Assembly: GCA_021298155.1 (NCBI GenBank)
Contig: JAJTEN010000014.1
Coordinates: forward strand, 1-50,904
DNA: 50,904 nucleotides
Source of the DNA: Sphingobacteriales bacterium
GTDB taxonomy: Bacteria; Bacteroidota; Bacteroidia; UKL13-3
Direction of reading: 5' to 3'
The position numbers were made by a program, and so were the translations under genes. The stretch's first letter is position 1; each line of letters opens with the position of its first letter. Of the stretch, positions 49,465 to 50,904 are shown piece by piece. The notes under the pieces are model-generated. The model was not told the DNA's origin, searched no databases, and worked only from the letters and a program-made list of their open reading frames with translations.

Positions 49465-49538
49465 TCCTTCTTAGCTCAGCTGGTTAGAGCACATGACTGT
49501 TAATCATGGGGTCCCTGGTTCGAGCCCAGGAGAGGGAG
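49465..49538 (+). tRNA. tRNA-Asn (GTT)
   Basis: A full cloverleaf can be drawn. The acceptor TCCTTCT (49465-49471) pairs with AGAGGGA (49531-49537); the D-stem is GCTC/GAGC; the anticodon stem CATGA/TCATG holds the loop CTGTTAA with anticodon GTT at 49499-49501; the T-loop is TTCGAGC. The discriminator is G538 and no CCA is encoded. Confidence 0.96.
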
Positions 49539-49541
49539 CGA

Positions 49542-49584
49542 ATAAAAGTAAAAGGGTTATACTTGTATAGTGTAACCCTTTTTT
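49542..49584 (+). repeat. 43-bp hairpin element, copy 1 (behind tRNA-Asn)
   Basis: A 13-bp stem with one G-U pair (49551-49563 with 49569-49581), a 5-nt loop and a T run: a terminator for tRNA-Asn. The same 43 bp occur without change at 50313-50355. A TATACTTG inside is one mismatch from a -7 box and lies about 20 nt before the next gene, so it may also be a promoter. Confidence 0.88.
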
Positions 49585-49590
49585 GTTTTT

Positions 49591-50172
49591 ATGAATATAT
49601 TTTCTACTTGCCTTCTAATATTACTCTCTTTAAACTTGTACGGGCAGTCAGTTCAAAATAAGAATTGGGAGTATTCAAAAGTTGTCTATAATTCTAAAAT
49701 CAATAATAAAATAATTATTACCAATAGCCTACCTAAGGGAGGTGGAATCGTTTCCCATAAAGGAAAAGAGTACAACTATTTTATTTTTTGGACTAATGTA
49801 CGTAATGAAGCATCATTACCTCTGGATTTAAAAATTAAATTCCCGACAATCATTACTTTTAAATCTAAAGAATCGTACGCCAAAGTTGTCTTTACTAAGT
49901 CAAATATGACACTTGACAAAGTGCAAGAGTTCGACTATGGTCTTACGGGCATACCATCTCTTATAAATAATGAATCAAATGAATTAAAGGATTTGAATAA
50001 TAGAATTTCGCCTTTCGAGAATTATTTATTCTACAGTGTAATTTTCATCCATAAAACAAAATGGCCTGTTAGGGCAGAATATGTCATAAAAGATAAAAAC
50101 CTATTTTACAAGATTACAGCCGGTACAGATGTTGTAATGGTTCCTTGCGGTAGTCTTGATTTTAGAAATTGA
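49591..50172 (+). CDS. Small secreted protein of unknown function
   Basis: 193 residues with a signal peptide (MNIFSTCLLILLSLNLYGQS, cleavage near 18-20). The mature part is beta-rich with no Cys until near the C-terminus and no motif that I recognise (NKNWEYSKVVYNSKINNKII; KFPTIITFKSKESYAKVVFT). It starts 6 nt after the hairpin element that ends tRNA-Asn. The codon usage is more A/T-rich and less like the housekeeping genes, which fits recent acquisition, but this is an impression. Confidence 0.6.
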   Translation: MNIFSTCLLILLSLNLYGQSVQNKNWEYSKVVYNSKINNKIIITNSLPKGGGIVSHKGKEYNYFIFWTNVRNEASLPLDLKIKFPTIITFKSKESYAKVVFTKSNMTLDKVQEFDYGLTGIPSLINNESNELKDLNNRISPFENYLFYSVIFIHKTKWPVRAEYVIKDKNLFYKITAGTDVVMVPCGSLDFRN

Positions 50173-50225
50173 TTATTGCGATTTTTGCTAAAAGGAAATT
50201 AAAGAATGAACCTTCTTAAAAAATT

Positions 50226-50308
50226 TACGAAATTCAACCCTTCAATTTGCTAATTGTCACATACTCAATCATCGCATTATAGCTGCATCTTTCGTCGAAA
50301 AGGGGAGC
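50226..50308 (+). repeat. 83-bp direct repeat, copy 1
   Basis: Shares 74 of 83 positions with 50762-50844 without gaps (my count by eye). It begins TACGAAATTC and ends AAGGGGAGC. It is not coding and lies 53 nt after the stop of the upstream gene. Its last bases resemble the 3' acceptor end of tRNA-Asn (GAGGGAGC). Confidence 0.9.
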
Positions 50309-50312
50309 GGAT

Positions 50313-50355
50313 ATAAAAGTAAAAGGGTTATACTTGTATAGTGTAACCCTTTTTT
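50313..50355 (+). repeat. 43-bp hairpin element, copy 2
   Basis: Identical over 43 bp to the element behind tRNA-Asn (49542-49584), including the stem (50322-50334 with 50340-50352) and T run. It follows the 83-bp repeat after 4 nt and lies 13 nt before the DUF3703 gene. Confidence 0.92.
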
Positions 50356-50368
50356 ATTTCTTTAAAAA

Positions 50369-50734
50369 ATGAAAATACATACTAAAATGCCTGATAGGCT
50401 AACTCCCTTTTTTCTTAAAGAGTTAGAAATTGCTGGTAAATATTTCTCAATGAACGATTTCAGAACTAGCTGGTATCATCTTGAGAGAGCCCATATCCTT
50501 GGCCAACCCTATCCGTACCATCACACGCTAGTTCATTGGAAAATGTTACTCTTTGGTATCAAAATAAAGGATGTAAGAGAAATTATTGGTCAAATTCCCC
50601 GCTTACTAGTGGGTGGTGTTAAATCTTTTGTTGGCGAAATTCCAGCTGGTAATACCGGCGGAGCAAATGTGCCACCACTTGAAAGTATGGAGATACCGGA
50701 AGAATTGAAAAAAATTATTGAGGAGAATAAGTAA
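50369..50734 (+). CDS. DUF3703 domain protein
   Basis: 121 residues. WYHLERAHILGQPYPYHHTL, VREIIGQIPRLLVGGVKSF and the C-terminal IPAGNTGGANVPPLESMEIP are the conserved parts of DUF3703, a family of small cytosolic proteins often found beside metal-resistance genes. Its biochemical role is not known. No metal-resistance gene is seen here. A second in-frame ATG at residue 7 (MPDRLTPFF) is a possible start. It lies between hairpin element copy 2 and the second 83-bp repeat. Confidence 0.75.
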   Translation: MKIHTKMPDRLTPFFLKELEIAGKYFSMNDFRTSWYHLERAHILGQPYPYHHTLVHWKMLLFGIKIKDVREIIGQIPRLLVGGVKSFVGEIPAGNTGGANVPPLESMEIPEELKKIIEENK

Positions 50735-50761
50735 CACTTATTATCACTTTTTGTAAAATTG

Positions 50762-50844
50762 TACGAAGTTCAACCCTTCAATTTCCTGATAGGCACATAC
50801 TCAATTATCGGATTATAGCTGCATCTTTCGTCAATAAGGGGAGC
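50762..50844 (+). repeat. 83-bp direct repeat, copy 2
   Basis: Second copy of the repeat at 50226-50308, with nine substitutions and no gaps. It begins 27 nt after the DUF3703 stop, and it is followed at once by a different terminator. Confidence 0.9.
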
Positions 50845-50845
50845 A

Positions 50846-50876
50846 AAAAGCCTCACAGCAATGAGGGGTTTTTTTT
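50846..50876 (+). terminator. Terminator behind the second repeat
   Basis: CCTCA at 50851-50855 pairs with TGAGG at 50862-50866, with flanking A and T tracts extending it across a mismatch, then a T run. It differs in sequence from the 43-bp hairpin elements. Confidence 0.7.
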
Positions 50877-50904
50877 GTGCGATTCTTGGAATCATCGATC
50901 AACG

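Follow-up and report, generated by a model that had tools for sequence, protein, structure and literature searches.

Two small genes, each closed by the same conserved repeat, stand in a row behind a tRNA-Asn gene near the right end of this contig, which raises the question of what these units are and how they came to be stacked there. The initial annotation took them for gene cassettes inserted at the tRNA 3' end. The window analyzed here is the entire contig of 50,904 bases, and there is no sequence to the right of position 50,904.

Organization of the tRNA-Asn locus

The tRNA-Asn(GTT) gene occupies positions 49465–49539 of the plus strand, and its 3' end, GGGAGC (49534–49539), forms the core and the proposed attB. 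Two units follow on the same strand, each running from core to core. Cassette A (49540–50308), delimited by alignment to six other genomes, begins with a 43-nt left-end module of type A (49542–49584, plus strand) that contains a hairpin with arms at 49550–49563 and 49569–49582. Its single gene, gene A (49591–50172, plus strand; 193 amino acids), is an open reading frame without a Pfam match, and six genomes carry relatives of it in this cassette context. The right-end arm is the first 83-bp repeat (50226–50308, plus strand), identified by BLAST and profile and ending in the terminal core GGGGAGC. Cassette B (50309–50844, plus strand), delimited by alignment with L107, L147 and L143, has the same layout: a second copy of the left-end module (50313–50355, plus strand), identical at 43 of 43 nucleotides to the first; gene B (50369–50734, plus strand; 121 amino acids), assigned by Pfam to DUF3703 (PF12487, E = 7.6e-42); and the second 83-bp repeat (50762–50844, plus strand; BLAST), again a right-end arm closed by GGGGAGC. 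The two repeats agree at 74 of 83 positions (89%). This order of tRNA-Asn, hairpin, gene and repeat confirms the initial annotation in all the parts that it listed. The start codon of gene A adjoins the T-tract of the hairpin (49576–49591), leaving almost no leader, and the start codon of a type A cassette in another genome (L035, 5099–5136) likewise abuts the hairpin T-tract.

Each conserved element is present in exactly two copies in the 2.50-Mb genome, all of them in the window; this holds for the 83-bp repeat by BLAST and for the 43-nt hairpin with up to three mismatches allowed. Since each occurs only twice, both times here, and the same elements recur in other genomes, the repeats are more than chance.

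A terminator-like hairpin (50850–50876, plus strand), different from the 43-nt module, stands 3' of the second repeat. It resembles, above shuffled sequences, the stretch behind tRNA-Asn in three of nine relatives, is similar to the array ends of L035 and L052, and is probably resident sequence to the right of the array. The expectation of an integrase just beyond the right end is therefore not favored: this hairpin matches the tRNA-Asn flank of relatives and the two array ends, and the window genome has no match to the large serine recombinase (LSR) discussed below at E ≤ 1e-5. As the contig stops there, such an integrase keeps some residual probability.

The units recur as whole cassettes in other hosts

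Cassette A aligns from position 2–5 to its last base (769 of 769) with L151 (91.5% identity), L133 (89.8%), L111 (87.1%), Aquirufa rosea (L134, 86.6%), Sandaracinomonas limnophila (L127, 86.5%) and A. aurantiipilula (L120, 86.3%), and in the last of these the copy again lies directly behind tRNA-Asn. Less complete or more diverged copies, at 68–85%, were found in L152, L105, L163, L162, L154, L175 and L190. Cassette B aligns over positions 12–536 of 536 with L107, L147 and L143 (84.8–85.6%), and gene B has further, shorter or weaker matches elsewhere. Other cassettes behave in the same way: one with a regulator and an acyltransferase is 94.8% identical over 1,995 bp between L036, from the family of the window, and L123, a Cytophagaceae MAG, and L035 and L190 share a TfoX cassette with 99.3% identity over 406 bp.

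Host divergence was gauged by the core gene for phosphoenolpyruvate carboxykinase, which was found in 6 of the 15 genomes asked and thus gives host divergence for few pairs. Its DNA is 67% identical between the window genome and the L133 genome (against 89.8% for cassette A there) and the two TfoX hosts agree in it at 69% of 917 aligned bases. In addition, L035 and L052 have both flanks in common and differ in the content between them. Because cassette identity lies far above host gene identity and content differs between shared flanks, it is well supported by these comparisons that the window units are discrete cassettes which spread horizontally. The insertion of whole cassettes at the tRNA-Asn 3' end, as first proposed, is likewise borne out by the shared flanks of L035 and L052 and by the nearly core-to-core recurrence of the window cassettes. 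Misbinning could affect single MAG contigs, hardly the strain genomes.

Distribution and array structure

With a sequence-only profile, the 83-bp element was found in 17 of 64 genomes of the family (8 of 14 genera), which shows that the locus is not conserved in all relatives. At the level of the class, it occurs in 14 of 395 genomes (12 of 196 genera). A scan of named genomes with one exact pattern containing AGGGGAGC, and hence biased to that core, returned at least 117 stretches with the repeat. The titles of the 117 matches listed name Bacteroidota in 112 cases, "uncultured bacterium" in 3 and other groups in 2 (L166, Acidobacteria; L185, Bacilli), which we suspect to be misbinned. The taxa include Flavobacterium, Sediminibacterium, Aquirufa, Sandaracinomonas, Spirosoma, Chitinophagaceae and Haliscomenobacter, among others, and several titles name lakes or ponds. 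Most named records are MAGs; RefSeq records comprise the strain-named A. rosea, A. aurantiipilula, A. antheringensis and S. limnophila as well as Sediminibacterium sp. C3. Aquirufa and Sandaracinomonas belong to the Cytophagales, Sediminibacterium to the Chitinophagales.

A viral or plasmid home of the system was rejected. Viral contigs contained neither the repeat (one exact pattern) nor an LSR relative, plasmids gave no LSR match at 1e-20, and all 92 LSR-matching phage records stayed below 60% identity, the best 20 of the 92 reaching at most 26.6%.

The repeats form arrays. The follow-up repeat search covered 96 sources, including 80 of the at least 117 named loci, and the array search covered 109 loci, with five duplicates removed. 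Among these, 97 loci hold 174 repeats, with two or more repeats in 46 loci, and within each fetched stretch the repeats are co-oriented. A single contig of A. antheringensis contains the loci L225 and L226, whose repeats are some 14 kb apart and have opposite orientations. A tRNA-Asn gene is in view at 24 repeat loci; in 23 of them it precedes the repeats on the same strand, the exception being L090, so the repeats are not intergenic elements unrelated to tRNA genes. Repeats away from tRNA-Asn were found in L214, L217, L225, L226 and L229.

Counting only units shorter than 6 kb, we obtained 98 units from 60 loci with a median length of 916 bp. After removal of overlaps, 118 ORFs run in the direction of the array and 36 in the opposite one; 55 units contain one ORF of at least 80 amino acids, 25 contain two, 10 contain three to five and 8 contain none. 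Of 141 cassette proteins, 120 entered the alignment set; the 21 omitted came from six units, mostly long ones, and included the short tyrosine recombinase of L202. The 120 proteins match 76 Pfam families (E ≤ 1e-5), and the 25 families listed of these 76 include short-chain dehydrogenases, hydrolases, DUF3703, HigB toxins, cyclic-nucleotide-binding regulators, acyltransferases and TfoX C-terminal domains. With the recombinase queries used, a recombinase-like ORF was detected in one of the 98 units, namely the short tyrosine recombinase of L202. By ORFs and Pfam, neither window unit carries a recombinase; both keep attachment ends without integration genes, as CIMEs do. Cassettes of one genus (g5; L201, L204 and L206) carry HigB/HigA-like toxin-antitoxin pairs, with HigB_toxin in three members, and these pairs gave PD-Lambda-2 matches. 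By eye, no co-variation of the repeat ends with the host tRNA end was seen among the matches listed.

The 83-bp element reads as the end of a large serine recombinase gene

Read backwards from the core, the 83-bp element usually encodes APLTDERCNYNAMIEYVTIRKLKG-stop. The window copies read APLFDERCSYNAMIEYVTISKLKG-stop in the first repeat (50234–50308, minus strand) and APLIDERCSYNPIIEYVPIRKLKG-stop in the second (50770–50844, minus strand; tblastn and frame reading), both taken as the 3' end of an LSR gene. By tblastn, the former frame is 87.5% identical to residues 61–84 of an LSR fragment, L102. In L102 and L118, LSR fragments lie directly behind the repeat core and continue in frame through the core into the 83-bp tail; LSR matches also start at the core in L170 and, weakly, in L175. 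Matches to the LSR C-terminus at E ≤ 0.01 were found downstream of 5 of 173 repeats and upstream of 0 of 162, compared with 2 of 173 random stretches.

The alignment of repeats held 150 of 170 matches, a few duplicated loci included. Of 166 distinct copies with a GGAGC end, the frame was examined in the 129 that agree with the consensus to at least 72%. The LSR frame gains 7 stops, compared with 31–60 in the five other frames, and codon-position entropy in it is highest at the third position (0.68, against 0.48 and 0.47). One forward frame has the same third positions and more synonymous changes than the LSR frame, which makes the stop counts the more telling measure. An alignment of six LSRs shows no variation in the AP codons at the core, so all six would pass from the LSR body to the 83-bp tail in a common frame. 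These observations suggest that the 83-bp end is likely descended from an LSR gene.

Of the earlier proposal that each insertion regenerates the tRNA tail and its terminator, the short GGGAGC core stands and the rest is not supported. Read on the reverse strand, the 83-bp part looks like the 3' end of an LSR gene instead of a tRNA tail, and the 43-bp hairpin is part of the left end of the cassette and moves together with the cassette, instead of being a regenerated tRNA terminator.

A short word near the core of the 83-bp arm, TAGTTGCATCTTT (TAGCTGCATCTTT in the window copies), appears again in left-end modules of type B (for example L036, 5197–5275) and as an inverted pair in the LSR-derived stretch of A. 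rosea; it is possibly a binding site.

Cognate large serine recombinases lie on tRNA-Asn

The LSR of A. rosea is intact (Resolvase and Recombinase domains, PF00239 and PF07508), and its 3' end overlaps tRNA-Asn, giving the protein the tail ...APSPGLEPGTP. The LSRs checked, whether cognate genes or fragments, lie on tRNA-Asn in six of six cases (A. rosea, G072, G069, G012, G071 and G068). Family matches with at least 50% identity are those of G072, G069, G012 (with stops) and G071 (a fragment), and G068 holds a distant fragment (24%). Among relatives from the class, L254 (45%) is on tRNA-Asn and L253 (55%) is not. The serine of the RVST motif, which we take to be the catalytic serine, is invariant in six aligned LSRs, and the nearest solved structures by sequence are the TP901-1 integrase and a resolvase-family protein.

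In L297 and L224, the LSR element and cassettes share one array. A single contig of L297 contains an LSR cut by the contig end, a DNA methylase, a small serine recombinase, an acetyltransferase and four repeats with cassettes between them. The small serine recombinase was recognized by PF00239 in L297, through sequence relatives in L224 and by eye in L295. The counterpart of the ParB-domain gene of ssrA-type islands looks ParB-like by eye, and Pfam gave N6_N4_Mtase for it in L297 and nothing in L214.

Of the 56 array-bearing genomes outside the family, 4 have a cognate LSR (at least 45% identity) and 52 lack one. In a rough count, cognate LSRs occur in 6 of 73 array-positive and 3 of 410 array-negative genomes (Fisher test, p about 6e-4), numbers assembled by hand from differing samples with estimated overlap. 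Arrays that mostly lack an enzyme of their own are expected of decayed or trans-mobilized elements, and are equally compatible with spread by homologous recombination.

More distant LSRs (L231–L281) use various tRNAs: among 50 genes examined, 36 stop no farther than 250 bp from a tRNA gene, one gene being counted twice; the tRNAs are those for Asn, Arg, Glu, Met, Lys, Leu, Val, Phe and Pro. Targeting of tRNA genes by serine integrases may be common in Bacteroidota. In a genome of the same genus as the window (G014; L047, 3025–4278), the gene immediately after tRNA-Asn encodes a tyrosine recombinase of the Bacteroidetes type, which indicates that this tRNA is also the target of other elements. 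Another same-genus genome (G010; L046, 11000–12750) has two tandem, near-identical small-gene units behind tRNA-Asn, GIY-YIG-like by eye, each followed by a further tRNA 3' end into which a palindrome is set; this is a different kind of unit, and it regenerates the tRNA tail. On the minus strand of L039 (3130–3240), a tRNA-Asn-like fragment broken by CCCGATAGCTATCGGG-type palindromes lies between a repeat and further tail copies.

Left-end modules

Behind the core, 165 distinct modules were collected and split by word patterns into type A, with the hairpin of the window (32), type B (51) and others (82). A profile of type B hits the 3' end of one LSR at E = 2e-5, where the best of 300 shuffled sequences reaches 0.02; against the other five of the six LSR ends it scores no better than shuffles, although in four of these the alignment keeps the same register. 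The A. rosea genome has a type B module joined to LSR codons 446–476. The type A module is open in the LSR frame as judged by eye, and no LSR ending in a type A module was found, for which reason an LSR origin of the left end in the window is inferred and not proven.

A proposed origin of the cassettes and its alternatives

We propose, with a probability of about 0.58, that the window units are non-autonomous cassettes derived from integrative elements of a tRNA-Asn-specific LSR whose attP lies inside the LSR gene. In the parent element, attP would be located within the 3' end of the LSR gene, in the array-strand order 83-bp arm, GGGAGC core and hairpin arm, and the gene would read backwards across all three. 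The tRNA-Asn 3' end (GGGAGC) would serve as attB. Upon integration at the tRNA, the last LSR codons (...APLTDERCNYNAMIEYVTIRKLKG) would be exchanged for the tRNA-encoded ...APSPGLEPGTP. Deletion derivatives in which the two arms enclose just one or a few cargo genes would be the cassettes. An LSR acting in trans would release these as circles, which it would then integrate at tRNA-Asn or at an existing core, producing tandem arrays. A typical serine integrase joins only attP to attB, so this presumed manner of adding a second cassette needs an extra assumption. The LSR reading is further weakened by the array genomes without an LSR, which are the majority, by the small number of downstream LSR C-terminus matches (5 of 173, with 2 of 173 in random stretches), by the five of six LSR ends that the type B profile does not match, by the failure to find an LSR ending in a type A module, by the repeats away from tRNA-Asn, and by other recombinases close to some repeats, one of them inside a unit (L202). 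The broader picture, of an integron-independent, hairpin-free cassette system in several Bacteroidota orders, with a serine integrase that has its attachment site at the 3' end of its own gene, where exchange of the integrase C-terminus at tRNA-Asn might switch activity and mostly one-gene cassettes exploit the integrase in trans, is put forward tentatively and is rather less certain.

The absence of an LSR from 52 of the 56 array-bearing genomes would be accommodated if cassettes spread mainly by homologous recombination between arrays, for example through natural transformation, with the tRNA gene and the conserved ends as substrates and the LSR as the ancient origin only. Conserved ends at every unit would serve this as well, although they are present by definition of the search; they are short, only about 80–90% alike between units and poor substrates between distant hosts, and LSR genes are commoner in array-bearing genomes by the rough count above. 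We regard this route as unlikely. Movement by a tyrosine or small serine recombinase beside some arrays appears more unlikely again. A short tyrosine recombinase does lie in the L202 unit just before the repeat, a short one also lies upstream of the repeats in L228, a tyrosine recombinase lies behind tRNA-Asn in L047, and a small serine recombinase ends at a repeat in L214; however, each is near few arrays, one unit in 98 has a recombinase-like ORF by the queries used, no clear repeat directly adjoins the short tyrosine recombinases of L213 and L216, and none of these enzymes accounts for the reverse-strand reading frame of the repeat. Tyrosine recombinases of about 500 amino acids we link to tRNA-Arg, which stands beside one of them in L218, and for which a tRNA remnant read by eye in L214 also speaks.

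Unit size, the predominance of single genes, the shared orientation and the kinds of cargo are all integron-like, and the 83-bp element might accordingly be read as attC, with IntI acting from elsewhere. Its identity as attC was rejected on folding: three copies, on both strands, fold no better than shuffles (z from 0.10 to 1.22). Moreover, arrays begin at a tRNA gene in 23 loci, and an integron is highly improbable here. PF00589 proteins occur in 16 array genomes, a family-level match that is not specific to IntI. It is just as improbable that ordinary, vertically inherited genes happen to lie among dispersed intergenic repeats. The repeats are indeed short, and no role in mobility is known for gene A or gene B, but a dispersed repeat agrees poorly with two copies in the genome, both at this locus, and vertical descent with presence in 17 of 64 family genomes, with different content between shared flanks and with cassettes far more alike than their hosts.

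Relation to known systems and significance

The closest known system is that of the ssrA-specific genomic islands of Dehalococcoides (DsiB/DsiA). In these, the LSR 3' end always overlaps the attachment site and its stop codon falls beyond the island; a small serine recombinase is present as a second enzyme, islands stand in tandem behind one RNA gene, and each boundary has an alignable region of about 85 bp (PMC3146451). In that system, the target is tmRNA and the islands are whole, within up to 100 kb (PMC3146451). The likeness lies in the LSR over the attachment site, the small serine recombinase, the tandem units and the boundary element, about 85 bp there. An LSR 3' end over the target RNA gene was found in six of the six LSRs checked here, whereas the window units are without an LSR. 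Compared with the ssrA islands, the target here is tRNA-Asn and not tmRNA, the units have a median of 0.9 kb and usually one gene, the boundary element itself reads as an alternative LSR C-terminus, and the phylum is Bacteroidota. CIMEs have lost their integration genes, kept their attachment sites and accreted in tandem, and tRNA 3' ends are assigned there to tyrosine integrases (PMC5704250). The cassettes share with CIMEs attachment sites without integration genes and tandem stacking; in contrast, they are much smaller and recur as discrete units in different orders.

The functional analogue of the arrays is the integron cassette. Integron cassettes are small, mostly single-gene and mostly co-oriented, have a conserved 3' element and form arrays at one anchor, all of which applies to the units here. 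Unlike in integrons, there is no folded attC, the anchor is a tRNA gene, and the conserved element can be read as a portion of a gene for a serine recombinase. In SSV1-type archaeal integrases, attP lies in the integrase gene and integration at a tRNA gene alters that gene, which is split in two. As proposed here, the LSR resembles them in having attP within the integrase gene and in being changed by integration at a tRNA gene, and differs in being a serine recombinase that exchanges a short tail, whereas in the SSV1 type a tyrosine recombinase is divided in two.

No prior description of such arrays was found among the open-licence PMC papers listed; the cassette system is real, widespread and, as far as those papers show, undescribed. 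It makes two ideas testable, namely the regulation of a serine integrase by exchange of its C-terminus on integration and cassette-style tandem insertion by serine integrases. The 83-bp element provides a precise sequence tag for listing the cassette pool. For freshwater Bacteroidota, the finding suggests a large shared pool of small genes, with enzymes, regulators, toxin-antitoxin pairs and many unknowns, that moves outside the integron system.
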